From positions 1 to 54,162 of the forward strand of contig JAEUSY010000039.1 in NCBI GenBank assembly GCA_016788295.1: 54,162 nucleotides of DNA, given 5' to 3'. Below the pieces are notes generated by a model. That model did not search any database and was not told the DNA's origin. It saw only the letters and a list, made by a program, of their open reading frames with translations. Every line of letters starts with the position of its first letter. Position 1 is the stretch's first letter. This DNA comes from Flavobacteriales bacterium. GTDB lineage: Bacteria; Bacteroidota; Bacteroidia; Flavobacteriales_F; PHOS-HE28. This document shows, in pieces, positions 12,712 to 37,568 of the stretch. The position numbers and the translations under genes are program-made.

Positions 12712-13278
12712 TCACCGCACCTTTGCCCGCAAGCGGCTGAAGGTCTCGGGCGTCATGCCCAGGTAGGAGGCGATGTCCTTCTGGGCCACCAGTTGCAACA
12801 GGTGCGGACTGCGTTGCACCAGGCGGCGGTAGCGCTCTTCGGCGGAGAGCGCCAGTTGCTCCACCTCGCGCGTGGCGCGGCCTGCGATCAGCTCTTCCAG
12901 GATCAGGCGGCCGAAGCGTTCCATGGCCGGCATGCGGTCGTACAAGCGGTAGAGATCGGCGCGCTCGATGCCCCAGAGCACACTGTCGGTAACGGCCTGC
13001 ACCTGGAAACGGCCGGGGCGCTGCGACACAAAGGAATCGAAGTCGCCGGACCAGCTGTGGTCGTACGAGAAGCCCAGGCAATGGTCGTTGCCATCGTGCT
13101 CGAAATAGAGGCGCTGCACACCGCTCTCCACGATGTAGAACCTGCGCTCCACCCTGCCCGCCTCGGAAACGCGCCCGCCCTTCGCAAAGGTGTAGGTGTG
13201 CCAGCACGGCACCACCTCGGCCCACTCGGCATCAGTGAGCTTCACGTAACGTTCAATGGTGCGGCGGACCAGTTCCAC
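12712..13278 (-). CDS. Crp/Fnr-family transcriptional regulator
   Basis: A 188-residue regulator: cNMP-binding fold at about 25-120 (GRVSEAGRVERRFYIVESGVQ) and a C-terminal winged helix with QKDIASYLGMTPETFSRLR as recognition helix. This is the short Bacteroidota form. The residues that bind cAMP in E. coli Crp are not conserved, so the ligand is unknown. The start is taken as GTG at 13278: the frame has an ATG only far upstream inside the divergent gene, homology begins here, and GACCTTCG lies 4 nt before it. It is divergent from the aspartoacylase-like gene (77 bp). Confidence 0.85.
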   Translation of the reverse strand: MELVRRTIERYVKLTDAEWAEVVPCWHTYTFAKGGRVSEAGRVERRFYIVESGVQRLYFEHDGNDHCLGFSYDHSWSGDFDSFVSQRPGRFQVQAVTDSVLWGIERADLYRLYDRMPAMERFGRLILEELIAGRATREVEQLALSAEERYRRLVQRSPHLLQLVAQKDIASYLGMTPETFSRLRAKVR

Positions 13279-13341
13279 GGCGCGAAGGTCCGTATTGTGC
13301 CAAGCGCCAGCAACGCCCGGCGGCCGTGAACGGCGGGCGGC

Positions 13342-13349
13342 TAACTTGG
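13342..13349 (+). promoter_or_regulatory. -7 box TAACTTGG of the hydrolase gene at 13355
   Basis: The box ends 5 nt before the ATG, so the mRNA would start at or next to the A of the start codon. One mismatch from TAnnTTTG. Confidence 0.4.
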
Positions 13350-13354
13350 CAGCG

Positions 13355-14338
13355 ATGACAGCACGGTCCACATCCCACAACGACCCGGCCAGTTGCACCC
13401 TGGTGCGCATTCTGGGCGAATCGGTGCGCCCCGGCGAGCACCGCACCCTGGACCTGCAGGTGGCCAAGCTCTACACCCGCACCAGTGTGGAGATCCCCGT
13501 GGTGGTGCACCGCGGTCCGCAGGAAGGGCCCGTGCTGCTGGTACTTGCGGGCGTGCATGGCGACGAAGTGAACGGCATCGACACGGTGCGCCGCATCCTG
13601 GCCGACATCGCCGAGCGTCCGTTGGAACGCGGCACACTGGTGGCCATTCCCATCCTCAATGTCTTCGGCTTCCTGGCCATGAAACGCGAGCTGCCCGATG
13701 GCCGCGATCTCAACCGCTTTTTCCCCGGCGCGGCCAATGGCTCGTTGGCCAGTCGCCTGGCGCATGCGCTGGTCACCGAAGTACTGCCCGCCGTGGACGT
13801 GGTGATCGACCTGCACAGCGGCGCAGACCAGCGCCACAACCACCCGCACCTGCGCTTCACCGAGGGCGACGAAGGTTCGTGGGATATCGCTCAGGTCTTC
13901 GACCCACCACTGGTGCTGCGCGCGCCCATCCGCGAAAAGTCGCTCCGCGCCCACCTGAACCACCAGGGCAAGCGCTACGTGCTCTTCGAGGGCGGCAAGG
14001 CGCGCAGCCTGGACGAGGATGCCGTGCGCGAGGCCTACCGCGGGGTGGCCCGCGTGATGGAGCACCTCGGCCTGTGGAGCGGCCCCTCGGACCCCACCCG
14101 CGGCACATCCATCCTCACCGGCTCCAAGTGGGTGCGTGCGCCGCTGGCCGGGCTCTTCCACCCCGTGATGGAGAACGGCTCGAAGGTGGACAAGGGCATG
14201 GTGCTCGGACTGGTGAGCGACCCCTACGGCGAGGCCGTGCGGCAGGTGCGCGCCCCTTTCCCCGGCCACATCATCTGCGTGAACACCGCCCCCGTGGTGA
14301 ACCAGGGCGATGCGCTGTTCCATTTGGGGATATCGTGA
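13355..14338 (+). CDS. succinylglutamate desuccinylase/aspartoacylase-family zinc hydrolase
   Basis: A 327-residue M14-like zinc hydrolase of the AstE/AspA superfamily. The zinc ligands are seen in AGVHGDE (His68, Glu71) and DLHSGADQR (His154), with the DxNR substrate motif at 118-121 (DLNRFFPG). The C-terminal 75 residues form the beta domain typical of bacterial members (PLAGLFHPVMENGSKVDKGMVLG). No arginine-catabolism genes are nearby, so AstE in the strict sense is unlikely; the substrate is open. Homology starts at the ATG at 13355. Confidence 0.9.
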   Translation: MTARSTSHNDPASCTLVRILGESVRPGEHRTLDLQVAKLYTRTSVEIPVVVHRGPQEGPVLLVLAGVHGDEVNGIDTVRRILADIAERPLERGTLVAIPILNVFGFLAMKRELPDGRDLNRFFPGAANGSLASRLAHALVTEVLPAVDVVIDLHSGADQRHNHPHLRFTEGDEGSWDIAQVFDPPLVLRAPIREKSLRAHLNHQGKRYVLFEGGKARSLDEDAVREAYRGVARVMEHLGLWSGPSDPTRGTSILTGSKWVRAPLAGLFHPVMENGSKVDKGMVLGLVSDPYGEAVRQVRAPFPGHIICVNTAPVVNQGDALFHLGIS

Positions 14339-14461
14339 GGGACGGCCCCATGCGGATCGGGCCGGTGCAAGCCCCTCAGCGCAACGCACAGGCAAATGCC
14401 TGGGGCTATGTGCGGGTGAAGCAACAGGAACCGCTTGGCTCTAATTATGTCCTTCCAGGCG

Positions 14462-14578
14462 TTGGGTTACCTTGGCAGGAATGGAACACCATGGTGAGAC
14501 TTGGCAGTGCGGCGTTGAGGCGCAGGGTCCCCTGCGGGAGACCCTGCGGAGGTTGGAGACTGGTGGTAACCCAGTACG
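14462..14578 (+). repeat. leader repeat, copy A (island A 5' flank)
   Basis: About 115 bp closely matching 19852-19958. It begins with a -7-like box (TACCTTGG), has an identical 20-nt core (14504-14523, ggcagtgcggcgttgaggcg) and ends exactly at the start codon of the next small gene. The 10-nt length difference lies just before that start. It could be a promoter plus structured leader. A short frame (LGSAALRR..C.R.CGGW) is open in both copies. Confidence 0.75.
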
Positions 14579-14785
14579 ATGAAGAACACACTTGATCTTG
14601 TCGGAGGAGCGCTCTGGTGGCTGATGTTTTGCACGCCCCTAGTGTTCTTTCCGATAATATGGCGCACATCCAAGGCGGCCAGATGGAAGAAGGTTCTCAT
14701 TGCCATAGTCTGCTCAGTCATCACATCAGCTGTATTCTATGCAATCAGTCTAGCAATCATCTTCTGTGATGGGATGGGACCATAA
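14579..14785 (+). CDS. small membrane protein, island A
   Basis: A 68-residue protein with two hydrophobic helices (about 7-27 and 38-60) joined by a basic loop (RTSKAARWKKV). Base composition is clearly lower in GC than the neighbours. It starts right at the end of the leader repeat, and its stop lies directly before the CCGC-TAGC-GCGG hairpin element. No family recognised. The tight fit between two repeats argues for a real, transferred gene, though coding status is not certain. Confidence 0.5.
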   Translation: MKNTLDLVGGALWWLMFCTPLVFFPIIWRTSKAARWKKVLIAIVCSVITSAVFYAISLAIIFCDGMGP

Positions 14786-14810
14786 CCCCCGCTAGCGCGG
14801 ATGTAGCTGG
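14786..14810 (+). repeat. hairpin element, copy A
   Basis: CCCCC, then CCGC-TAGC-GCGG (4-bp stem, 4-nt loop), then ATGTAGCTGG. Nearly identical to 20348-20373. Directly follows the stop codon of the small gene. It resembles REP-type palindromes of Bacteroidota. Confidence 0.65.
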
Positions 14811-14895
14811 GTAATGCACTTCCCGCAATTCAAGACAGAGTGCTAAAGCCAAAATCACTCACACTACAGCCTGGTGATAAAGGCAAACCGAAGCA

Positions 14896-15210
14896 ATGAG
14901 ACGTCATAGAACTTTCCTGTCATGGGTACTTATTACGTCCCTCGTACACCTTGGCTTTGTGGCGAGCGACTACTATGGCATTATTTCAGTAACTTCCTCG
15001 AGGGGGTGTGATGAATTGAAAAACATACTAATTAGTTTTCCTCAAATGATACCTGCGTACATCGACATATATTCAGGTAGTCGATATGGTGTAACATTCT
15101 TCGGAGTTGTTGGCCTCTTTCTTGCGTGGGGAATGCTTTTGGTCCCAATCCATCTCGGCGTTCATGCGCTAATTATGCTGATTCGGTCATCCATACTCCG
15201 CAGGCCCTAG
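14896..15210 (+). CDS. small membrane protein, island A (second gene)
   Basis: A 104-residue protein with an N-terminal hydrophobic helix (about 6-24), a polar loop with TSSRGCDELKN, and a second helix pair (about 67-98, VTFFGVVGLFLAWGMLLVPIHLGVHALIML). The DNA is AT-richer than the flanks, with codons unlike the surrounding GC-rich genes. No family recognised. Start and reality are less certain than for the larger genes. Confidence 0.5.
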   Translation: MRRHRTFLSWVLITSLVHLGFVASDYYGIISVTSSRGCDELKNILISFPQMIPAYIDIYSGSRYGVTFFGVVGLFLAWGMLLVPIHLGVHALIMLIRSSILRRP

Positions 15211-15286
15211 TCGGGCGGCAATGTTTCAATCTAGGCCGGGGCTAGTTCCACGATGCTACCGGAATGCGGCCTTCGACCCCGCTCTC

Positions 15287-15406
15287 GCGAATCTTCCCTG
15301 ATCGCTCCCGCGGATCTTCGATCCGTGGTCTTCTCCACATCCTCGTTCAAGGCAATAACGCTGCCGCCCTGCTACTCCCACGAGAAAGCCGGAATAACCG
15401 CTTCGA
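15287..15406 (-). repeat. degenerate repeat, island A 3' flank
   Basis: This stretch aligns with 20434-20546; shared blocks include CGCTnCCGCGG and TCTCCACATCC. On the minus strand both translate to related peptides (here SVIALNEDVEKTTDRRSAGAI; at the other site TVAVVAGDVERSAERRAAEAL), but stops interrupt this copy. It looks like an old coding or mobile relic. The sequence at 15211-15286 and 15407-15609 shows nothing I can name. Confidence 0.55.
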
Positions 15407-15609
15407 ACCTAAAGGCCGGCAGGCAGGCTTTCGAAGTGGCCGTTCTGGGGTTCGGCATGCCATCGGGCAACAGATTTCTTTGAGTTCCGGAGATACCGGT
15501 GGGCAATTTTCGATCTGCCCGTTCGATGGTGGCGACCGTTCCGGATGCTTTTCGGGCATGGCCGGTGAAGTTCCTGGCCAGGTTTTCGGCCTTTCGGTCC
15601 TTTTGGCGG

Positions 15610-15765
15610 TCAGTCCCTGGTGCCTGGGCACAGCGAGCAGTTCACCTGCTTGTTCTCAGCAATGCGGATGGCCCGGGCTTGGCTGATGGCTTGCTGGCCA
15701 TTCAAGGCTTGGTCCGGCCTGGTGTAGGCCTCCATGGGGATGATGCCTTTGAGGGAGCCGTGGGG
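15610..15765 (-). pseudogene. C-terminal remnant of an IS3-type transposase
   Basis: The minus strand encodes PHGSLKGIIPMEAYTRP followed by about 35 residues to a TGA at 15612. The 'H.SL.G.tP.eAY' pattern is the usual end of the rve integrase domain in IS3-family OrfB transposases. No catalytic DDE core and no upstream frame remain, so it is a fragment. It lies beside island A and suggests past insertion or recombination here. Confidence 0.5.
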
Positions 15766-15954
15766 TAAGCCCCCGCCCGGTCCCGCCATGCGGCGGGAGG
15801 CAGCGGCGGCTGGCCAATGGAACTGCCCTGCGAGGGCAAGGTTGAATGCATCTCCAAGAATGAATGGCCGAACTCGGGAGAAGCCGACACCACCTTTTCA
15901 GCGGAACGAACTTCGGTCGCGGATGTGTACCTTCATTGCCCAGCCCCCACTGCC

Positions 15955-18153
15955 ATGGACCACACCCGTTACCTGCTTGCCGTATTGCTAAGCCTATCCA
16001 CCGCCCTGCTGCACGGTCAGGAGTTCGAGCGGCTTACGGGTTGGCCTGTGTTCAACGGCCAGGTGCGGGCCATGGTGCTCGACGAGAGCGCCGATGTGCT
16101 CTACGTGGGTGGCACCTTCACCACGGTGAACGGGCAACCGAGGGCGCGTTTGGCGGCACTGAACAGCAATACGGGCGCCCTGCTGCCCTTCAACCCCGGT
16201 GCCGATAGCACGGTACACACACTTGCACTGCAGGGCGACATCCTGTACGCAGGAGGCGACTTTCTTCTGCTGGACAACACCCCCAGGCAGCGGCTTGGCG
16301 CCTTGGACAAGACCACGGGCACCCTGCTGCCCTGGGCACCGGCGGTGAACAGCACCGCACGCTGCCTGCTGGCACATGCGGGCGTGGTGCATGTGGGCGG
16401 GTGGTTCAGCCAGGCCAATGGCCAACTGCGCGCGCAACTGGCCGCGTTCAGTTCGGCCGATGGCACACTGCTGCCCTGGGCGCCGGCCACCAACGGCCCG
16501 GTTTTCGCACTGCTGTTGTCCGCCGATTCGCTGGTGGTGGGTGGGGCCTATACAACGCTGAACGGCCTGCCCCGTGGCCGGTTGGCACGTGTGGACCGCG
16601 TGAACGGCCAGCTTTCCCCATGGGCACCGAACGCCAACAACACGGTGACCGCCTTGGCATTGGAGAGCGGAGGACACCTGGTGGCGGGTGGCTCCTTCAC
16701 GAACGTCAACAACCAACCGATGACCGGTGTGGTGCGCCTGAACACGGTTACCGGCGCAGTGGTGGATGGTGCCACTACCATCTCCGGGGCCGTTCAATGC
16801 CTGCAGGTAACGGACCAGTACATAATGGCCGGTGGGTTCATGCCGAGCATTGCCGGATCGGCCACACGGCACTTTGCTTCCTTCGCCAGCAACGACCTGG
16901 GCTTCAACACCGGTTCGCCGAGGCCCAGTTCCACCGTGTACGCCATGGTGGTCACCGCCGATCGGGTGTACTTGGGGGGCGCCTTCACCCAGGTGGAGAC
17001 CACGTCCACCGGCCCCTTTGTGGCCTACTCCCACTGCACCCCCACCACCTGGTTCGCGGACAACGACCAGGACGGCTTCGGCAACCCTGCCATTTCCGTA
17101 AGCGCATGCACGCAACCGAACGGCCATGTGCCGAACGCACTGGACTGCAACGACAACGACGCACTGATCGGCCTTGGGCCCACGTGGTATCGCGATGCCG
17201 ATGGCGATGGAGCAGGCGACCCGTTCAACACCCTGGCCGCATGCACGGCCCCGCCCGGCTATACCGACAATGCGCAGGATTGCGACGACACCAACGACCA
17301 GATAGCACCTGGCCTGGCCTGCAACGATGGCGACCCGTTCACCACCCAGGATGCCACCCTGCCCTACCCGGCCTGCGGATGCGCGGGTGTGCAGCTGCTG
17401 ATCACCGCCAAGGTGATGCTCGAAGGCCCCTATGAGCCCAGCGCCGGGCTGATGCACGACCTGCTGCGGCAGGCCGGGCTGGTGCCATTGACAGAGCCCT
17501 ACACCGCCCTTGGATACGACCTGGCCGGATCGCCGCACCAAGGAGGCGAGACCATTTCGCCATCCGTACTGCTGGTGACCGGACCGAACGCCATTGTGGA
17601 CTGGGTGGTGCTGGAACTGCGCCAACAGAACGACCGCTCGGCCATGGTGGCCGCGCGCTTCGTGCTGGTGCAACGCGATGGCGACGTGGTGGACCTTGAC
17701 GGCGTATCGCCCGTGCGCTTTGCGGTACCCTTCGGCAACTACCACCTGGCGGTAACGCACCGCAATCACCTGGGCGTGGTGCAACAGGCCCCGGGCTACC
17801 TGGAGGTGACCTCGTTGGACCTCACCTCCCCCGCAACGGCCACTGCGGACCCGGACGACCGTGTGCAGGTGGCCGGTGTCATGCTGCTGCGGCAAGGCGA
17901 TGCCAGCTTTGGCGGCGGCGTGAAATACACCGGCGAGGACAACGACCGCGACCTGGTGCTGCAACGCATAGGCGGCACGGTACCCACCAATGCGGCCTAT
18001 GGCTACCATGGCGAGGACATCAACTTGGACGGTGTGGTGAAATACACCGGCGAGCAGAACGACCGGGACCGGATCCTACAGGCCATTGGCGGCGTGGTAC
18101 CCACCAACACACGCGCCGACCCCTTCGGCCGCCCGGCCACCGGAGGCCTGTGA
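15955..18153 (+). CDS. large secreted propeller protein with MopE-like and EF-hand-like repeats
   Basis: A 732-residue exported protein. A signal peptide covers about 1-22 (YLLAVLLSLSTALLHGQ). Residues 30-355 are tandem blades of the form 'LYVGGTFTTVNGQPRARLAAL'. Residues about 365-475 hold MopE-like calcium/metal motifs (DNDQDGFGNP, DCNDND, DADGDGAGDP, DCDDTND). A C-terminal domain starts at ITAKVMLEGPY and ends with two repeats VKYTGExNDRDxxLQxIGGxVPTN, preceded in the second by DINLDG, like dockerin/EF-hand loops. No classic T9SS domain is visible at the end. The ATG at 15955 precedes the signal peptide; TACCTTCA lies 22 nt upstream. Confidence 0.85.
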   Translation: MDHTRYLLAVLLSLSTALLHGQEFERLTGWPVFNGQVRAMVLDESADVLYVGGTFTTVNGQPRARLAALNSNTGALLPFNPGADSTVHTLALQGDILYAGGDFLLLDNTPRQRLGALDKTTGTLLPWAPAVNSTARCLLAHAGVVHVGGWFSQANGQLRAQLAAFSSADGTLLPWAPATNGPVFALLLSADSLVVGGAYTTLNGLPRGRLARVDRVNGQLSPWAPNANNTVTALALESGGHLVAGGSFTNVNNQPMTGVVRLNTVTGAVVDGATTISGAVQCLQVTDQYIMAGGFMPSIAGSATRHFASFASNDLGFNTGSPRPSSTVYAMVVTADRVYLGGAFTQVETTSTGPFVAYSHCTPTTWFADNDQDGFGNPAISVSACTQPNGHVPNALDCNDNDALIGLGPTWYRDADGDGAGDPFNTLAACTAPPGYTDNAQDCDDTNDQIAPGLACNDGDPFTTQDATLPYPACGCAGVQLLITAKVMLEGPYEPSAGLMHDLLRQAGLVPLTEPYTALGYDLAGSPHQGGETISPSVLLVTGPNAIVDWVVLELRQQNDRSAMVAARFVLVQRDGDVVDLDGVSPVRFAVPFGNYHLAVTHRNHLGVVQQAPGYLEVTSLDLTSPATATADPDDRVQVAGVMLLRQGDASFGGGVKYTGEDNDRDLVLQRIGGTVPTNAAYGYHGEDINLDGVVKYTGEQNDRDRILQAIGGVVPTNTRADPFGRPATGGL

Positions 18154-18186
18154 AACCGCCCTGCTGATGGCCTCGTAGAACGGGGC

Positions 18187-19755
18187 ATGTTCAAGTTCGG
18201 GACCGCCCTGCTCTTCACTTCGTTGTGCGCCACAGCGCTGGCACAACAGATGATCCCCGACCCCACCTTCGGGAACAATGGGCTTGTGCTGGTGCCCTTC
18301 TATGGGACCACGCCCGATTGCTACATCTCCGTGGTGCGCCCGCAACCCGATGGACGCGTGGTGGCCGTGATGCTGCGCACCGACCAAACGCCACGGCCGC
18401 TGGTACTGCGCCGGTACCTGCAGAACGGCAGCATCGACCCCACCTTCGGCCTCAATGGGGAAACCTCGCTGGTGGTGACCACGCCGGGCCAGGTGCCCCT
18501 GCTGGAGACCGCGCGGATCCGGCCCGACGGGCGGATCCTGGTGCTGCTGCGCGATGGCGGTCGCAACCTGCTTGTCCAATTCACCCCGCACGGCGAACTG
18601 GACCCTACGTTCGGCCAAGGGGGCATTAAGCTGCATGCCGGCGCACAGACCTTCGATACCTACAACCTGTACATCGACGAGCAAGGCCGCGCACTGGTGG
18701 TGGGCGCGCACGGACCCTATGCGTCCATTACACGCTATCTGCCCACAGGTGAACCGGACATGAGTTGGGGCACCAATGGCATTGCATCGCCCATGGCACC
18801 CATCTTCAGCAGTGCGGCGGTGGACCTGGCACCAACGCCCGAAGGCGGCTACGTGGTGGTGGGCACACAGACCGGCACCGTGGTAACGGCCTCGTGGATA
18901 GCGAAGCTGGACCCTTGGGGGCAACCGGTGAGCACCTTCGGCACCGATGGGTATGCCCTTATGGACCTGCTGCCCGCAAGCCTGGGGCCCAAGCGCGAGC
19001 AACTGCGGCGTGTAGTGCTGCGCGCGGACGGAAGCATTGTGGCGGTGGGCAATATCAGCAGCCTTTCCGTGAACCTGAACGTGATCCTGTTCGCCTTGAC
19101 CGCGAACGGCCAATACGATACGACCTTCGGGAGCGGGGGTAACCACCAGATCATCCTGACCAATGGGCTGAACGTGCCCACACCGGAGATCTTCCTGCGC
19201 AACGATGGACGCGTGCTCGTGGCAGGCGTGCAGACAGGACCCTCACTGAGCGACAACCGCCTGGTGTTCCATGAATTCCTGCAGGACGGAACGCCCAACA
19301 GCGGGTTCGGTAGTGGAGGCACGCTCTCCTACGTGCGCCCGGCCATGGCGATCAACAGCTCAGGCGGGCTCAATTTCCTGCCCAATGGAACGCTCCTTGC
19401 CAATGTGGACCTTACGCACCTGGGCCAATACAAACTGGGCATTCTGCGTCTGGAGCAAGCGGACATCACCACCGGCATCGCCACCGAAGAAGGCAGCACT
19501 GCCCAACGGTTCGGCGCCTACCCGAACCCCACCAGCGGCACCATCACCCTGCAAACGGAAGCGCTGCACGGACCCGCGTACGTGCGGTTGCTCGATGCGA
19601 TGGGACGTGAACTGCAGCACTGGGACCTGAGCGCGCTGAACCTGGCCCAAGGCCAGCCCGTGCAACTGCGCACCGACCTCCCCGATGGCGTTTACACCCT
19701 TCGCGTAGGGCTCGGTGCCGACAGCCCAACGGCACGTGTGGTGCTGCAACGCTGA
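18187..19755 (+). CDS. delta-60 repeat protein with T9SS sorting domain
   Basis: A 522-residue secreted protein. Signal peptide 1-19 (FGTALLFTSLCATALAQ). Residues 24-420 contain delta-60/DUF5122 propeller repeats, each with 'DPTFGxxG' (24-32, 84-91 and later). A type A T9SS C-terminal domain covers about 440-522 (FGAYPNPTSGTITL ... LPDGVYTLRVGL ... RVVLQR), which directs export through the outer membrane and attachment to the surface. It lies 33 bp after the propeller protein on the same strand and is probably co-transcribed. Binding partner unknown. Confidence 0.9.
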   Translation: MFKFGTALLFTSLCATALAQQMIPDPTFGNNGLVLVPFYGTTPDCYISVVRPQPDGRVVAVMLRTDQTPRPLVLRRYLQNGSIDPTFGLNGETSLVVTTPGQVPLLETARIRPDGRILVLLRDGGRNLLVQFTPHGELDPTFGQGGIKLHAGAQTFDTYNLYIDEQGRALVVGAHGPYASITRYLPTGEPDMSWGTNGIASPMAPIFSSAAVDLAPTPEGGYVVVGTQTGTVVTASWIAKLDPWGQPVSTFGTDGYALMDLLPASLGPKREQLRRVVLRADGSIVAVGNISSLSVNLNVILFALTANGQYDTTFGSGGNHQIILTNGLNVPTPEIFLRNDGRVLVAGVQTGPSLSDNRLVFHEFLQDGTPNSGFGSGGTLSYVRPAMAINSSGGLNFLPNGTLLANVDLTHLGQYKLGILRLEQADITTGIATEEGSTAQRFGAYPNPTSGTITLQTEALHGPAYVRLLDAMGRELQHWDLSALNLAQGQPVQLRTDLPDGVYTLRVGLGADSPTARVVLQR

Positions 19756-19806
19756 ACCAACGCAGCCGGGGAACTTTCCGAATGAAGGTGGCCACCGGGC
19801 CGTAGC

Positions 19807-19821
19807 GTTCTCGGCGAGAAC
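19807..19821 (+). terminator. possible terminator hairpin after the delta-60 gene
   Basis: Perfect inverted repeat GTTCTC-GGC-GAGAAC, 51 bp after the stop. No T run follows, so only a weak call. Confidence 0.3.
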
Positions 19822-19851
19822 CTCTCGGGGCTACTTACGCCTAACCAGGAG

Positions 19852-19958
19852 TTCGGTTATCTTGGCGGGAAAGGAGCACCATTGTGATGCTGGGCAGTGC
19901 GGCGTTGAGGCGCATGGGCACCTGCAGGAGGGCCTGCGGAGGTTGGGGAGCGGGGGCG
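19852..19958 (+). repeat. leader repeat, copy B (island B 5' flank)
   Basis: Partner of 14462-14578. It begins with TATCTTGG, contains the identical 20-nt core at 19894-19913 and ends at the ATG of the next gene, as copy A does. Confidence 0.75.
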
Positions 19959-20357
19959 ATGAAACACCTCTTGCTCTTGGCCCTAACCGGTGTTGCCACG
20001 GTCTCCTTTGCTCAAAGTGATCGGGCAACATTCTTCTTCGTTGAGCATTCCCGAGAGTTGAGCCCTGGTATCATTGCCCGCCTCGACTCACTATGCTTAT
20101 TGATCAACGCGGATCTCTTCCTCAAGGAAAAGGTGGTATTCAATGTCTATGGCTACGCAAGCCCAGCTGAATTGAAGGTTGCGCCATCTATCGATGAAGA
20201 TCGCGCGCGTGCCGTTGCCCAATACATGATGACTCACTGCATTCCTGACTCGGCGATGTGGCATATAGTTGATGTCACGAATCTCCGCAAGGATCCATCT
20301 GGTCTTTCTGCAGTTGGCATCACGACAGGAGGCCGGAGATCCCCCCCCCCCCGCTAA
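19959..20357 (+). CDS. small exported OmpA-like protein, island B, possibly truncated
   Basis: A 132-residue protein with a signal peptide (about 1-19, LLLLALTGVATVSFAQ). The body resembles the first part of an OmpA-C domain: FFFVEHSRELSPGIIARLDSL, VVFNVYGYASPAEL and SIDEDRARAVAQYM. The last third of the OmpA fold with its Arg motif is missing; the reading frame runs through a C12 tract and stops inside the hairpin repeat (…RRSPPPR). This suggests recombination at the repeat cut off the original 3' end. Codon use is AT-richer than neighbours. The ATG at 19959 follows directly on the leader repeat. Confidence 0.6.
   Translation: MKHLLLLALTGVATVSFAQSDRATFFFVEHSRELSPGIIARLDSLCLLINADLFLKEKVVFNVYGYASPAELKVAPSIDEDRARAVAQYMMTHCIPDSAMWHIVDVTNLRKDPSGLSAVGITTGGRRSPPPR
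20341..20352. repeat. poly-C tract (C12)
   Basis: Twelve consecutive C residues within the last codons of the OmpA-like gene. Slippage would change its C-terminus. It could also be a sequencing or assembly weak spot. Confidence 0.85.
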
Positions 20358-20373
20358 CGCGGATGTTCGCTGG
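20348..20373 (+). repeat. hairpin element, copy B
   Basis: CCCCC, then CCGC-TAAC-GCGG, then ATGTTCGCTGG; partner of 14786-14810. The loop TAAC supplies the stop codon of the upstream gene. Confidence 0.65.
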
Positions 20374-20433
20374 TTCGGATCTGTTATCCGGACCAACGCA
20401 TTGAAAGCCCCTTCAAGATCCGCAGCCACCTCT

Positions 20434-20546
20434 GAACGTTCTCCGAGCGCTTCCGCGGCTCTACGCTCCGCACTCCTCTCCACATCCCCGGCCACGACCG
20501 CAACGGTGCTGCCGAACAGTGCTCGGGGCAACAGTATCTTCGCTTG
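20434..20546 (-). repeat. degenerate repeat, island B 3' flank
   Basis: Partner of 15287-15406. Here the minus-strand frame is open (LFGSTVAVVAGDVERSAERR and onward, rich in Ala, Glu and Arg) but has no good start and no family I recognise. The rest of 20358-20695 shows no gene. Confidence 0.5.
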
Positions 20547-20695
20547 GAGTGGTAGTGGAGCCTCATCATTTCTGGTACTTCAGTGCGCGGGATGAAGCTT
20601 GACTATGGGAATGTTGAGACTTGAACGCATTTAGGGAGCGGGGATCACAGATCACGATCGAACATCGGCAACCCATGAAGCAGTATGAGGGATCC

Positions 20696-20968
20696 ATGGA
20701 ACGCAGATGTGCGCGAGCGTGGGTTTTTCTGTTCCTTACCTCCACCTTGCTTGTAGCATGTGCCTCTCCTGAACCGGAGGAACCTCCAACTGTCACCTTA
20801 CGTGGCGACAGTTTGATGATTTCTCGATCACAGTACGTTAGCATGGTGAATACTTATCTCGATCATATGAGGTCTCAACCCGACCTCATTGATACGGCCG
20901 ACTGTATTACCATGATCAGACTGTATAATACCATCGAGCTTGAACGAGGATCGGCAACAACGGACTAA
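20696..20968 (+). CDS. small lipoprotein, island B
   Basis: A 90-residue protein with a lipoprotein signal (AWVFLFLTSTLLVAC; lipid Cys near residue 21), then an acidic Pro-rich spacer (SPEPEEPP) and about 60 residues with DSLMISRSQYVSMVNTYLDHM. Predicted to be anchored in the periplasm or outer membrane. The ATG at 20696 is preferred over ones at 20675 and 20621 because a GAGGGA lies 5 nt before it and the basic n-region follows. Its TAA directly abuts the ATG of the next small frame. No family recognised; GC is lower than in core genes. Confidence 0.6.
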   Translation: MERRCARAWVFLFLTSTLLVACASPEPEEPPTVTLRGDSLMISRSQYVSMVNTYLDHMRSQPDLIDTADCITMIRLYNTIELERGSATTD

Positions 20969-21130
20969 ATGGCGATTTATAACCAGATCTTCATTCGCTC
21001 TTATCTCAAAACTGCGATCCGCTTGACCAATGCGCATCTGTCGAAGGGTATGAGCTACTACTCGGACAAGTACAAGGTTTGCATCGGTGGATTCCCTGAT
21101 GACAATAGCAGATTCTACATCTTGGACTGA
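20969..21130 (+). CDS. 53-residue hypothetical protein, island B
   Basis: A short frame starting at the base after the lipoprotein stop (TAA then ATG) and ending in TGA at 21130. The product starts MAIYNQIFIRSYLK and ends NSRFYILD; it has no signal peptide and no membrane helix. Zero-spacing coupling and low-GC codons like its neighbour support it; its small size and lack of any recognised family argue for caution. Confidence 0.35.
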   Translation: MAIYNQIFIRSYLKTAIRLTNAHLSKGMSYYSDKYKVCIGGFPDDNSRFYILD

Positions 21131-21165
21131 AGTTGCCCCCAGACCTGCGCAGGCTCTGCCCCCCA

Positions 21166-21200
21166 GAAAAACACAAAGCCCCGACCAATGCCGGGGCTTT
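21166..21200 (-). terminator. Rho-independent terminator of the subtilase gene
   Basis: Stem AAAGCCCCG (21175-21183) / CGGGGCTTT (21192-21200). On the minus strand it is followed by GTGTTTTT. It lies 20 bp after the subtilase stop. Confidence 0.75.
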
Positions 21201-21220
21201 GCTCTGTAGTTGCGTTGCGC

Positions 21221-23833
21221 TCAAGGCAGCTTCACGAAGCGCTGCTGCCAGCGTTCGTTGCCGCGCTCCAGGCGCAGGGCGTAGGTGCCGGGTGCCAGGT
21301 TGCTGAGGGGCAGTTGCATCGTGCCTTCGGCGTTCACCGTGCGCTGCAGCACCAGTTTGCCGCCTGCATCCACCACGCTGAGGCGCACCGTGCCACCACC
21401 TGCGGGCAATTGCACCGTGATCTGCTCACGGGCGGGCGATGGCCACAGGGCGGGCGTGGCGGTGGTGCTGCCTTCGGCGAGCCCGGTGATGATCACCTGC
21501 ACGGGTGCGCTCATGGCCGAGCAGCCGTTGGGCGCTTCGATCTGCACGGCGTAGGTGCCCGATGAACCGGCCACGAAGGTCTGCGCGGTGGCGCCATCAA
21601 TGGGGTTATCGTTGTGGAACCACTGGTAGGAATCGCCGGGCGTGCTGGTGAGCTCCAGGCCGTTGGCGGTGATCACGGGTGCCGTGGGTGCGGGCAGCAC
21701 CGTGAAGGTGAGCGTATCGCTGAAGGTGCGGCAGCCGGAGGCGTTGTAGGCGATCACGCTGAGCGGTCCGGCGCCCACGTAGGCCAGCGGATTGGTGTCG
21801 CCGCCATTGCTCCACTGGAAGGTGGCGAGGTCGCCGGGCACCAGCACATCAATTGGGTCATTGTCGCACATCTGATCGCTCTCGGCCTGCAGCGCCACGT
21901 TGGCCAGGTTGGTGGTATTGAGCAGCGCGAAGGCATCGAGCTTGCCGTAGCCGTGGATGTTGTTGGGAACGGCGCCCGTGAACTGGTCGGCCACGGCGGT
22001 GCTGTGCAGTGCGGCGATCACCTCTTCCACCGGGGCGGTGGTGCACTTCTGGAAGTAGAGCGCAATGGCCCCGGTGACCACGGGCGATGCGATGGAAGTG
22101 CCGCCGGCACGTGAGTGCAGGCCGCCCTGTGCCACCTTGTGCGGTTCAAGGGCGGTAAGGATGGCGAGGTTGTCGGCGGTATTGGCCGTGAAGGTGACAT
22201 CGCCCGTGGCGGTGACGTTGGGTTTCTGCCGATCATCGCGTGTGGGCCCCAGGCTGCTGTTGATGGTGATGGCGCCGGGCGTACCGGGCACGGTCTGCGG
22301 GTTGCCGTTCACATCGATGTAGGACACCACGTTGTAGTGATTGCCCACGGTGACCACCTTGTCCGAGCAGGCCCAGCTGTCCACCAGGTGCTTGTTGCGG
22401 TCGGGCAGCACGTACTTGGCAATGGGTGGGAAGGTGGCCAGGGAGGGGATGTCGGTGACCATGAGGCAGCCGTTGCCGATCTGCAGGCTGCTCCACACAT
22501 CGAAACGGCCGGTGCCGGTTGTCATGAAGCGGAAGTTGTAGGCGTTGGAATCGGGCTGGGCCAATACCACCTGCAGTTGCACCTGATCGCCACGCTGCGC
22601 CGCGTAGTATTGCACCACGCCGAGGCGCTGGCCGCTGCTGTTCTTCAGGGTATCCACGATGACGCCGCCCAGGTTGGGCGCAATGGTGCGGTAGGGCGTG
22701 CGCCCCCTGAACTGATAGCTGGGCGTTACGCGATCGGCACCCACGGCGTATTGCACATTGGCGAAGTCGGCCAGATCGGCCCACACCTCGAAGAACACGT
22801 AACCGTACTGCTGGCCGTTGAAGGTGAGGTTGGGGTTGTATCGGAACCAGGTGAAGGCGCTATCGGGCGTTACCTCGGTGCGCAGGTGGTAGGGCAGGAA
22901 CTGGTTGCTGTTGCCGATGGCGCAGACCATGGCCCGTCCGCCGCGGGCGGTGAGCATGCTATCGATGAGCAGGGCGGCGGCGTCCTTGCCGTCGTGCGAG
23001 CCGTAGTAGGTGCCGAGGCTGGCGTTGATCACGGCCGGTTTGCCCATGGCCTCAGCCTCGTCCAGGATGTACTTCACCCCATCGGCCACCACGCTGCGCC
23101 AGTTGGGCGCGTTGAACTTGCTGCTGACCACGATAATGGACGCGCCGGGGGCCGCTCCTTTGTGCCTTCCGTTGGCCAGGCCGTTGCCCACGGCCGTGCC
23201 GGTGACCGTGGTGCCGTGGCCGTTCAAGCCGGGCTGGTCCACGGAGGTCATCTGCCCGTTGTTGATCATGGTGCTGTCCCACACCTGGCCGTAACCATAG
23301 GGCTGTGGGGTGAGCTGTGCGTTGAAGGGCAGCGTTTGGTCCCAATACTTCACGATGCGGGTGCGGCCGTCGGCATCCTTGAAGTCGCCGTGGGTGTGGT
23401 CCAGCCCGGAATCGATGATGCCCACCACCACGCCGGTGCCATCGTAGGCCTGCGGCAGGGGCGCCTGTCCGGCATGCACCAGGTCGATGCGGTTGCGAAC
23501 GCGCATGGTGTCGTTGAGCACATGGCCGGGATCGAGGCTGAACTCGAAGCGTTCCACGGCCACCTCGGCGGCCAGGGCCTCCACCCGGGCCACGGGGATG
23601 CGGGCGCTGGTGATGCGGCCGGTGCTCATTTTCACCACACCCCCGTGGGTGCGCACGGCCTGGGCCACCGCAGCGGCCGTGCCGTGGATGAAGAGGTCCA
23701 CCTGGGCATCGGCGGCGTGCACGCCATCGAGGTAGGCGCGCAGCACCAGATCGATCTTGGTGCGTTGTTGCGCGGAGAGCGGGGCCACAAGCACAAGGGC
23801 CGTGGCGAGCAGCAGGACGTAGCGTTGGAACAT
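21221..23833 (-). CDS. S8 subtilisin-like protease with T9SS sorting domain
   Basis: An 870-residue secreted serine protease. Signal peptide 1-21. A propeptide-like region runs to about 125. The catalytic triad is Asp141 (VGIIDSGLDHTHGD), His206 (NGHGTTVTGT) and Ser580 (GGTSIASPVV). The long stretch between His and Ser (about 330-510) holds an inserted beta-rich domain, as in other Bacteroidota subtilases. After the catalytic domain come a PKD/Ig-like region (about 640-780) and a T9SS C-terminal domain (LWPSPAREQITVQL ... LAPGTYALRLERG ... RFVKLP). Probable role: surface-bound or released protein degradation. Confidence 0.94.
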   Translation of the reverse strand: MFQRYVLLLATALVLVAPLSAQQRTKIDLVLRAYLDGVHAADAQVDLFIHGTAAAVAQAVRTHGGVVKMSTGRITSARIPVARVEALAAEVAVERFEFSLDPGHVLNDTMRVRNRIDLVHAGQAPLPQAYDGTGVVVGIIDSGLDHTHGDFKDADGRTRIVKYWDQTLPFNAQLTPQPYGYGQVWDSTMINNGQMTSVDQPGLNGHGTTVTGTAVGNGLANGRHKGAAPGASIIVVSSKFNAPNWRSVVADGVKYILDEAEAMGKPAVINASLGTYYGSHDGKDAAALLIDSMLTARGGRAMVCAIGNSNQFLPYHLRTEVTPDSAFTWFRYNPNLTFNGQQYGYVFFEVWADLADFANVQYAVGADRVTPSYQFRGRTPYRTIAPNLGGVIVDTLKNSSGQRLGVVQYYAAQRGDQVQLQVVLAQPDSNAYNFRFMTTGTGRFDVWSSLQIGNGCLMVTDIPSLATFPPIAKYVLPDRNKHLVDSWACSDKVVTVGNHYNVVSYIDVNGNPQTVPGTPGAITINSSLGPTRDDRQKPNVTATGDVTFTANTADNLAILTALEPHKVAQGGLHSRAGGTSIASPVVTGAIALYFQKCTTAPVEEVIAALHSTAVADQFTGAVPNNIHGYGKLDAFALLNTTNLANVALQAESDQMCDNDPIDVLVPGDLATFQWSNGGDTNPLAYVGAGPLSVIAYNASGCRTFSDTLTFTVLPAPTAPVITANGLELTSTPGDSYQWFHNDNPIDGATAQTFVAGSSGTYAVQIEAPNGCSAMSAPVQVIITGLAEGSTTATPALWPSPAREQITVQLPAGGGTVRLSVVDAGGKLVLQRTVNAEGTMQLPLSNLAPGTYALRLERGNERWQQRFVKLP

Positions 23834-30553: not shown

Positions 30554-30617
30554 CATGTGGGCGTGTGCTCATGTGGACATGTGCTCATGTGACCATGTAG
30601 GCATGTGGACATGAGTG
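30554..30617. repeat. 16-bp imperfect tandem repeat, four units
   Basis: Units start at 30554, 30570, 30586 and 30602, each beginning CATGTG and with a 16-nt period. Intergenic between pyrG and yidC. No spacers, so not a CRISPR. Function unknown. Confidence 0.75.
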
Positions 30618-35670: not shown

Positions 35671-36010
35671 TCAGCGCGCCACCTTCACCGCCTTCTTGAC
35701 CAGAGGTTCACCCTCGAAGAGGAGCGTCACGTAGTAGATGCCCGGCGTCAGATCGGCCGTGCACCACTCGAAGCGGTGCTCCCGGCGGTGCGCTGGCCCT
35801 CGAAGAGCGTGCGCAGGTGCTTCGCATCGGCAATGTTGACCAGCAACTGGGCATCAAGATCCAATGCTAACTGGAGACCCAGGGCTCATGGAGGTTCAGG
35901 GTCCCTTTCAGGACGAGGCACAGGTCGATGTCCGCTCAATTCTGCGAGGCGCCCCGCAAAGGCAGTATCATGCACAGGAGCACAAGCCCTTGGAATCGCA
36001 TTCTCCACAT
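35671..36010 (-). pseudogene. decayed third member of the T9SS family (signal peptide plus T9SS tail)
   Basis: The minus strand from 36010 reads MWRMRFQGLVLLCMILPLR and GASQN, nearly identical to the start of the intact gene at 37374. It then hits a stop where that gene has Trp25 (TGG to TGA). About 90 bp later a T9SS-like tail appears, split by a frameshift: LDAQLLVNIADAKHLRTLFEGQR in one frame and HRFEWCTADLTPGIYYVTLL to VKVAR in another, ending at 35671. The middle of the gene is deleted. The tail is not the A/B type, so it may derive from a different cargo gene. Confidence 0.72.
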
Positions 36011-36204
36011 GGCCCTCAGTTTTTCAAGAAGCGGAAACCGCCGTGCCCGCCAACCCTGATCACATACACCCCGCTTGCAAGCCGGTGCGTTGAAAGTGCA
36101 TTGCTTCGCCCGGAAATAGAAAGGAGGCTTCCTTGAAGGAGTTCCCTGCCAGCTTGGTCAACAAGACTGTAGTTGAATCGGCCGTCCGGCAATCCGATCA
36201 ACTG
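35921..36204. repeat. direct repeat, copy 1 (T9SS tail plus next signal peptide)
   Basis: About 284 bp aligning without gaps to 37285-37568 (offset 1364 bp) with only scattered mismatches. It spans the 3' end of one gene and the 5' end of the next. It marks tandem duplication or gene conversion. Confidence 0.85.
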
Positions 36205-37374
36205 CAACTGGCCATGCTCGATATTCACTGCAATGGGCGGCTCCGAAAGCTCATTCACCGACATCCCCGTCCCCAAGCTGCACGTGTCGGCGTAGGTGGT
36301 GTGCAGGTACCGCACGCCGCCGGAATTGTACTCGCCATCGATCCAGTTATTCCATGTCATCGCCAGTAGCGTGTCGCCTACGAACTCGATGTCATGCACC
36401 ATCTGCAGATCGCTGCCGAGGCCGCACCACACAGCGCCATCCCAAACGGCTATGCCCTTCGCCGGTACATGGCCGGCGTAGCTGAAGCCGCCACCCACGA
36501 ATAGTTTGCCGTTGTGTACCGCCAGTGCATGGATGTTCGGTGCTGAGTTGTAGGAGTCCGTATTGTCCGTGGTGCCAGCACCGAGCGGCTGCCAGATGCT
36601 GCCGTTCCAGCGCATGATGCACTGGCCGGCATTGCCCGCGCTGAGGTAGAAGCCTCCGCCCAGGATCAGCTCGCCGTTGTATATGATCATCTCCCATCCG
36701 CCGCTAAAGGTGCCCAGCAGGCCACCGCCCAATGGCCCCCACTGGCCGTTCTCGAAGATGTACACATCGCGGTAGCTCTGGCCCACGATGTCCATGTTGC
36801 CGCAGCACACCAACTTGCCATCGTACTTGATCACATCGAAGAGGTAGGGCTGTGGCACATTTCCGAAATCACCCACGGGCTCCCAATGGCCACCCACGCG
36901 CTTGGCGATGCCGTCGCAGGGCTGGCCATCGACCATGGTGAAGCCGCCAACCGCATATAACTCGCCGTCGATGACGCGCGTGCGATTGATGGTCAAGTTG
37001 AAATTGCCGTAGGGATGCCACCCCCCGTCATCCATGAAGGCGATGTGTGCAATTGGATTGCCATTGACACTCGAGAAGCCTCCGGCGGCTATCAGTGTGT
37101 CATTGTAACGCACCACATTGTAAACGATGTTCCCAAAAACCCCGATGGTATCCCAGCCGCTCCCCATCCTTCGATACACGCCTACTTGCCCACTGCCCGG
37201 CGCAATTTGATTCCAGCCAGTTGCATAGAGCGCTCCAGATGCAGGGTCAGTATAGAAGTCACCCCAATCCTGGAAGCTCCCAGGCAGGCCGATGTCCGCC
37301 CAATTCTGCGAGGCGCCGCGCAAAGGCAGAATCATGCACATGAGCACAAGCCCGTGGAATCGCATTCTCCACAT
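36016..37374 (-). CDS. secreted propeller protein with T9SS sorting domain (gene B)
   Basis: A 452-residue exported protein. Signal peptide at about 1-22 (LVLMCMILPLRGASQ). The body has Gly-rich repeats such as LIAAGGFSSVNGNPIAHIAFMDDG, ELYAVGGFTMVDGQP, LILGGGFYLSAGNAGQ and LFVGGGFSYAGHVPAKG, which look like a beta-propeller of the kelch/delta-60 sort. The T9SS C-terminal domain (about 380-452) is almost identical to that of gene A upstream (LIGLPDGRFNYSLVD, RLASGVYVIRV, FRFLKN). The start lies 5 bp after the gene A stop, so the two form an operon. No function beyond surface exposure can be assigned. Confidence 0.85.
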   Translation of the reverse strand: MWRMRFHGLVLMCMILPLRGASQNWADIGLPGSFQDWGDFYTDPASGALYATGWNQIAPGSGQVGVYRRMGSGWDTIGVFGNIVYNVVRYNDTLIAAGGFSSVNGNPIAHIAFMDDGGWHPYGNFNLTINRTRVIDGELYAVGGFTMVDGQPCDGIAKRVGGHWEPVGDFGNVPQPYLFDVIKYDGKLVCCGNMDIVGQSYRDVYIFENGQWGPLGGGLLGTFSGGWEMIIYNGELILGGGFYLSAGNAGQCIMRWNGSIWQPLGAGTTDNTDSYNSAPNIHALAVHNGKLFVGGGFSYAGHVPAKGIAVWDGAVWCGLGSDLQMVHDIEFVGDTLLAMTWNNWIDGEYNSGGVRYLHTTYADTCSLGTGMSVNELSEPPIAVNIEHGQLQLIGLPDGRFNYSLVDQAGRELLQGSLLSISGRSNALSTHRLASGVYVIRVGGHGGFRFLKN

Positions 37375-37568
37375 GGCCCTCAGTTTTTCAAGAAGCGGAA
37401 ACCGCCGTGCCCCTCCACCCTGATTACATACACCCCGCTCGCAAGCCGTAGTGTCGAAAGCGCATTGCTTCGCCCGGAATTGGAAAGGAGGCTTCCTTGA
37501 AGGAGCTCCCTTCCGGCTTTGTCAACAAGACTGTAGTTGAATCGGCCGTCCGGCAATCCGATCAATTC
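37285..37568. repeat. direct repeat, copy 2 (T9SS tail plus next signal peptide)
   Basis: Partner of 35921-36204. It covers the last about 60 codons of gene A and the first about 30 codons of gene B. Confidence 0.85.

Follow-up and report, generated by a model that had tools for sequence, protein, structure and literature searches.

REP and RAYT remnants beside AT-rich small genes in two islands of a Flavobacteriales contig

Two islands between an AstE-like gene and an S8 peptidase gene

The window analysed here is a stretch of 54,162 nucleotides (nt), positions 1 to 54,162 of contig JAEUSY010000039.1 from a Flavobacteriales bacterium (assembly GCA_016788295.1), in which two islands, A and B, carry AT-rich small genes among repeats that occur in the same order (Table 1). 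The source genome (G000) comprises 3.78 Mb in 61 contigs, the window being contig C30, and was compared with 44 other species of the same genus. A preliminary description, made from the letters of the window alone, had seen in these repeats the frame of a cassette-type exchange site without named counterpart, made of a leader, a hairpin at a stop codon and a degenerate minus-strand repeat. The repeats shared by the two islands are real, but a novel four-part element was rejected, since the parts are those of REPs (repetitive extragenic palindromes) and remnants of genes for RAYTs (REP-associated tyrosine transposases). We favour, with a probability of about 0.7, the reading that these repeats are remnants of two families, RAYT-A/REP1 and RAYT-B/REP2, which likely mark the edges of hot spots for the exchange of AT-rich small genes.

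The 6.8 kb between the AstE-like and S8 peptidase genes are an insertion, because 10 of the 11 loci fetched from relatives (out of 17 other genomes with an AstE match at E 1e-20) have the two genes side by side in convergent orientation, with a gap of 13-748 bp as compared with about 6.8 kb in the window. Four of the gaps in relatives contain a small gene, DUF202 by eye, and positions 21148-21245 of the window align to locus L176 at 80.8%. The cargo genes A1, A2, B1 and B2 are indeed AT-richer, as had been described (45-53% G+C versus 61.2% for the window). The second of the two accessory DUF5122 genes lying between the islands has no close ortholog in the 45 genus genomes (best at most 35%). 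A remnant of an IS3 element had also been proposed next to island A; the two frames tested gave no Pfam match at E 1.

Table 1. Features of the inserted block and its neighbours (window positions)
Feature	Position	Strand	Remarks
AstE/AspA-like gene, left neighbour	13256-14338	+	Pfam PF24827, 1.7e-33
Inserted block	14339-21147		scar A (RAYT-A) on its left edge, the conserved S8 terminator region on its right
RAYT-A 3'-end scar A with REP1 (leader A)	14407-14575	+	RAYT-A element profile 611-817 of 830, E 2.5e-18
REP1 hairpin, scar A	14519-14556	+	same 38 nt as beside the intact RAYT-A gene of G025
Cargo A1, 68 aa, predicted membrane protein (sequence look)	14579-14785	+	47.8% G+C
REP2, short form, after the A1 stop	14787-14827	+	23.3 bits, in the profile's own alignment; stop 4 nt earlier
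Cargo A2, 104 aa	14896-15210	+	45.1% G+C; one relative (85%) in the protein collection
REP2, long form (minus-strand repeat A)	15277-15330	+	42.9 bits, in the profile's own alignment; G025 copies closest
Two DUF5122 beta-propeller genes, accessory	15960-19755	+	Pfam PF17164; 64-66% G+C
RAYT-A 3'-end scar B with REP1 (leader B)	19806-19947	+	RAYT-A element profile 606-803 of 830, E 1.3e-18
REP1 of scar B	19909-19946	+	47.1 bits
Cargo B1, exported, OmpA-like look	19959-20357	+	stop and final five residues derived from REP2, the native end being residue 127
REP2, short form, loop with the TAA stop of B1	20349-20392	+	49.2 bits, in the profile's own alignment; G026, G009 and G042 copies closest
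REP2, long form, degraded (minus-strand repeat B)	20434-20475	+	16.8 bits; 71% in the repeat search
RAYT-B 3'-end scar with inverted REP2 remnant	20547-20720	+	RAYT-B element profile 561-728 of 781, E 1.1e-7; alignment
Cargo B2, 90 aa, lipoprotein-like by look	20696-20968	+	start codon within the REP2 remnant, directly after the RAYT-B scar
S8 peptidase with type IX sorting tail, right neighbour	21221-23833	-	Pfam PF00082 1.4e-26, PF18962 1.9e-8

Two families of REPs and their transposases

No direct repeat of the region is longer than that formed by the two leader copies (139 nt, 14428-14566 and 19818-19956, 78% identical), copy B matching copy A at E 3.4e-27. They had been said to end exactly at a start codon, but the REP1 unit stops short of the ATGs, by 22 nt in leader A (end at 14556) and by 12 nt in leader B (end at 19946). 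A core of 18 nt, GGCAGTGCGGCGTTGAGG, is identical in both leaders and in the source genome's three further long copies. The inventory thus rises from two to five long leader copies (two in the window and one each on C52, C29 and C43), additional copies of the genome holding only the 3' palindrome of the leader. This palindrome, REP1, matched in 42 of 45 genomes, with 0-70 matches per genome (150 candidates scored in each) and at least 37 in the source genome, some of whose copies were used in the model. Long leader copies were found only in the source genome, G009 and G025, in a survey of 98 relatives' genomes with at most eight candidates scored in each.

In G025, the leader sequence is the end of an intact gene of 195 amino acids, which is followed by the palindrome and preceded by an inverted one. 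The product of this gene matches the NCBIfam model REP_Tyr_transpos (NF047646) at 2.1e-18 and 66.6 bits, below the curated cut-off of 80. There is a strong case that the leader corresponds to the 3' end of a decayed RAYT-A gene plus the REP1 hairpin. The source genome yielded no RAYT-A match at E 1e-5, so that its leaders are orphan ends; no intact RAYT is present in the window, which contains 3' scars only, and the islands are remnants rather than active elements. Scars A and B extend further into the RAYT-A gene than the copies on C52, C29, C43, C15 and contig C136 of G009, in all of which similarity sets in at nearly one position, within the final codons of RAYT-A.

The association of REP1 with RAYT-A was assessed on 15 of the 19 listed genes that have at least 39% identity to RAYT-A, leaving aside a second, truncated copy in G025. 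Upstream, at a distance of up to 150 bp, 13 of these 15 genes have a REP1 on the opposite strand; downstream, 12 of the 13 not located at a contig end have one on the same strand; and 10 of the 13 that could be assessed have REP1 on both flanks. The hairpin is supported by covariation, with 95.7% of cells paired and 25 cells changed on both sides compared to 4.9 in shuffles (0 of 500 shuffles reaching this value). RAYT-A and RAYT-B both carry NHVH and RYIHANP / RYIHRNP motifs, which we take to be the HuH motif and the tyrosine of a Y1 HuH transposase. A contig search with RAYT-A returned one named locus, in a Bacteroidetes metagenome-assembled genome, and a PDB sequence search with it returned no match. 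In G025, an intact RAYT-A gene is followed in tandem by a 5'-truncated copy of itself bearing its own REP1 (L109, 5173-6389).

The stop-codon hairpin and the minus-strand repeat are the short and long forms of a single family, REP2, and both lie on the plus strand. The first, a CCGC-loop-GCGG hairpin, was found as described at both islands and nowhere else in the 3.78 Mb genome at up to one mismatch, but its count of 2 equals that of the backwards control (2) and is not above it by itself. The second is a genuine repeat (80 nt, 71% identical between the islands), although not one of the minus strand. With the REP2 profile, the three matches of the source genome all fell in the islands and no other place matched (127 of 1871 candidates scored), these three being sequences of the profile's own alignment. 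Across the genus, REP2 matched in 20 of 45 genomes, with 0-12 matches per genome, some of them partial or used in the profile. The mixed alignment gave no consensus pairs, although single copies do fold.

REP2 flanks RAYT-B in G025, in G008 and at two G026 loci, and RAYT-B scored 92.4 bits against NF047646, over the cut-off. The four RAYT-B genes all have REP2 upstream and none adjoins REP1, and the three not at a contig end all have an inverted REP2 downstream. Each transposase has its own partner, REP1 for RAYT-A and REP2 for RAYT-B; the one deviation, a weak one, is a partial REP2 match close to RAYT-A in L251. The RAYT-B 3' end of island B (20547-20720) had escaped the preliminary description.

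Genes beside the scars

Further copies beside other genes, which the proposal of an exchange site called for, were found on C15, C29, C43 and C52 of the source genome as well as in G009 and G025, and the cargo has changed between relatives at both scars that can be compared with the sister species G009. At the first of them, the AstE gene of G009 (94% identical) is directly followed by the same RAYT-A scar, with similarity fading at the end of REP1. Behind this scar lies a gene of 1263 amino acids on the opposite strand (L174, 6253-10044), without Pfam or PADLOC match, and the scar itself has decayed (61% identity to scar A, 70% to the G025 gene). At the second, on G009 contig C136, the scar adjoins a TPR/caspase-domain gene whose ortholog on C15 of the source genome (81%) has its scar placed likewise. 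The right-hand side is occupied in G009 by a DUF3592 membrane-protein gene reaching the contig end, and on C15 by a gene for a lipoprotein-like product of 97 amino acids, with matches at its own locus only, together with a weak RAYT-B 3' end (E 0.0097) and REP2-like palindromes. Five further relatives whose sequence extends beyond the start of the TPR gene, out of 41 other genomes with a match, gave no REP1 match at this site. In two of two comparable scars, the left gene and the scar were thus kept and the right-hand genes differed. The cassette-type exchange first proposed survives as far as different genes stand behind the same scar; a precise two-sided cassette is not supported, as only the left border is shown to be constant.

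At each of the 8 scars, G+C drops from the DNA preceding the REP to the DNA that follows it; two orthologous pairs are among them, which leaves 6 independent sites. The percentages to the left and right (500 bp) were 70/47 for scar A, 64/54 for scar B, 68/51 for C15, 64/42 for C29, 66/59 for C43, 64/51 for C52 (130 bp only on the right side), 69/53 for the AstE site of G009 and 69/51 for its C136. Small AT-rich genes follow the RAYT 3' scars of both families, since B2 lies behind the RAYT-B scar and starts in its REP2 remnant. Moreover, the series RAYT-A 3' end, other DNA and RAYT-B 3' end was found in one orientation at island B, on C15 (weakly) and in G025.

REP2 was located at the stop of a low-GC gene on the same strand in 10 of 19 short-form copies with a locus at hand, a copy being counted if it starts no more than 75 bp past the stop or 12 bp ahead of it and if the frame has 60 or more amino acids and a G+C of 56.5% or less. 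As controls, mirrored positions gave 0, and random positions in the same loci gave a mean of 0.87 and a maximum of 5 in 2000 draws. For B1, the effect on the gene can be followed: its four relatives in the protein collection (73-88% identity) all end at residue 127, five before the end of B1, indicating that REP2 at the native stop supplies a new one. The gene itself was present in 1 of 197 genomes, the source genome. One of its relatives, P0002, has a front part that reads as translated REP2 plus the start of RAYT-B (48% over 48 residues, E 4e-10), which places a B1-type gene behind another REP scar elsewhere; the only other protein starting like P0002 is P0007, by eye a RAYT-B element with an internal gap. 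As for the other cargo products, A1 had no Pfam, NCBIfam or PADLOC match above cut-off and B2 no Pfam match, and no PADLOC defence gene was found at E 0.01 among five cargo proteins.

Probable exchange at REP scars and its alternatives

The elements are of a known kind, though unusually arranged. Two REP families account for the layout first described, and the idea of exchange gains real but limited support. As to how the cargo moved, we infer that REPs and RAYT ends would have been put between the convergent genes by a RAYT, which is a single-strand HuH-tyrosine transposase, and that the RAYT genes would then have decayed. DNA arriving afterwards probably inserted at the REP hairpins or recombined there; the scar would thereby persist as the left border and the genes behind it would be replaced. 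REP2 at the stop codon gives B1 its stop and would double as transcript end.

Several observations weigh against our reading. No mobile event was seen, and only two scars are comparable between the source genome and G009. Of the two G009 contigs, that of the AstE site continues for 0.7 kb past the cargo without reaching the S8 gene, and C136 ends inside the variable part; the break point at the end of REP1 rests on the degraded G009 copy. Among full-length RAYT-A genes the trend is only weak, the downstream side having the lower G+C in 8 of 12, the higher in 3 and the same value in 1. The figure for REP2 at stops is descriptive, its limits having been fixed after viewing the data and several copies sharing a locus; 9 of the 19 hairpins are not at such a stop, and adding the 15 dropped rows (long-form copies and copies flanking RAYT genes, two of which would fall within the limits) brings the count to 12 of 34. 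In addition, the RAYT-B scar of C15 is weak (E 0.0097), one covariation measure of REP1, that of further pair types, was not above shuffles (132 of 500), and REP1 is common (at least 37 copies in the source genome), the cargo having been looked at for a minority of copies.

The best of the alternatives, which we regard as possible though clearly less probable, is that REPs, RAYT scars and AT-rich accessory genes simply pile up in the same non-essential spaces, the REPs having no role in exchange. The spread of REP1 over 42 of 45 genomes fits such tolerant gaps, as do the small extra genes that some relatives have between AstE and S8 without any RAYT scar. It accounts poorly, however, for the constant orientation, all 8 scars (6 of them independent) having their cargo on the 3' side, and for the position of REP2 on the same strand right after stops, in 10 of 19 copies versus 0 mirrored.

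Alternatively, the RAYT could itself have captured genes, by acting on a single REP end and carrying the adjacent gene along, so that REP-bounded genes would move as units, in a way that somewhat resembles gene cassettes or one-ended rolling-circle elements. In this unlikely case, an adjacent gene for an exported or membrane protein would be mobilised with its 3' end capped by a REP2 with built-in stop, in an integron-like manner that we likewise find improbable. The scars retain only the 3' end of the RAYT, with cargo behind in fixed orientation, and both families show the pattern (B2 being behind a RAYT-B scar); the co-oriented RAYT-A 3' end, cargo and RAYT-B 3' end of island B, C15 (weak) and G025, and the occurrence of B1 behind two different REP scars, also agree with capture. 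Yet the tested cargo genes were at no second place among the loci compared, except for a pair at 30% within G038, and no precedent was found in the open-licence papers searched, nor any account there of RAYT ends at the border of exchanged orphan genes. Variable single genes beside a hairpin site, or behind one transposase end, are features of integron cassettes and of the one-ended IS91/ISCR elements; the likeness is in layout only, and no search for an integrase, attC or ISCR gene was made.

We are still more doubtful of a selected expression frame, in which the leader would be a promoter or RNA leader and REP2 a terminator, both kept because the cargo needs them. A1 and B1 start only 22 and 12 nt past REP1, REP2 lies at stops, and parts of PMC3733652 credit REPs with roles in termination and mRNA stability; against this, the orthologous scar of G009 has decayed and its cargo is read towards the scar, from the other strand. 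Finally, a single old segmental duplication of one island followed by divergence of its genes, which the preliminary description had named as the outcome that would undo its proposal, is very improbable despite the same repeat order 5.4 kb apart on one contig and two degraded REP2 copies without clearly nearer relative (22 versus 19 and 19 versus 20), since the better-preserved REP2s score higher to copies of other genomes than to the other island (39 versus 19 and 46 versus 20), each leader resembles the G025 gene (86% for A, 85% for B) as much as it does the other leader (84%), and the intervening genes do not match each other.

The preferred reading, remnants of two REP/RAYT families at the edges of exchange hot spots, can be set against described systems. 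RAYT genes lie between inverted REPs according to parts of PMC2817692, and in those parts of PMC2817692 and PMC6006769 that treat REP/RAYT systems (REPtrons, BIMEs, REPINs) a HuH-tyrosine gene lies between inverted palindromes, each transposase having its own REP family and the palindromes being scattered in the genome, all of which resembles our families. In contrast to these systems, REP1 has no GT(A/G)G head and shows instead a conserved GAGG at its 3' foot, and orphan RAYT 3' ends stand alone here, bordering exchanged AT-rich genes with REP2 at their stop codons. REPtron copies often exceed 100 per genome; with 150 candidates scored in each genome, REP1 gave 0-70 matches per genome and at least 37 in the source genome, and REP2 gave 0-12 per genome. 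Another likeness is to TnpA-Y1 subclass 2.6, for which parts of PMC6006769 indicate mostly Bacteroidetes hosts and atypical flanking secondary structures copied elsewhere in the genome; by eye, NHVH fits this subclass, with YIHANP and YIHRNP instead of YIH[QN]NP. REPs are also insertion hot spots preferred by incoming DNA, as reported in parts of PMC1525189, with the difference that insertion sequences lie inside REPs there and orphan genes beside RAYT ends here.

REPs are usually viewed as short repeats moved by a domesticated transposase, whereas here two REP families and orphan transposase 3' ends border species-variable orphan genes in fixed orientation. If this pattern holds in more genomes, REP scars would be readable markers of gene-exchange sites in the genus, and whether RAYTs help to move genes would become testable. 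If capture were true, orphan genes would be exchanged in integron-like fashion by a single-strand transposase that is otherwise credited only with moving short repeats of its own.

REP occurrences of other kinds were also noted. REPs occur inside coding regions (parts of PMC3733652), and on contig C51 of the source genome two REP1 arms lie within a glycosyltransferase-like frame, adding about 40 residues in frame (L008, near 1450-1540, about 73852-73935 of the contig); REP1 copies in L007 and L012 are likewise within long open frames. In G025, tandem Rhs-core tip modules with variable ends and small genes extend over about 2200-10100 of L106 (G025:C1:166000-178000), with NCBIfam TIGR03696 in both modules scanned, REP2 clusters in between and a RAYT-B gene at one end; no paper joining REP, Rhs and Bacteroidetes was found in the open-licence literature. 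In L262 (G034:C170:12000-24160), the interval between cyanophycin synthetase and an HtpX-like gene holds a series of small genes of low G+C to which NCBIfam assigns no function; in three of these, REP2 is placed at the stop or close to it. Five copies of a look-alike hairpin, CCCGCTAGCGCGGATTT, occur in L078, L098 and L107 of G084, which belongs to another family of the class.

Elsewhere in the window, Rfam at gathering scores detected no known RNA family other than a 16S fragment at the window edge, a partial 16S rRNA gene on the minus strand (1-373, at the contig edge). Units of 8 nt of the CATGTGNN type form a run at 30554-30613, and a direct repeat of 281 nt, 92% identical, is found at 35921-36201 and 37285-37565.

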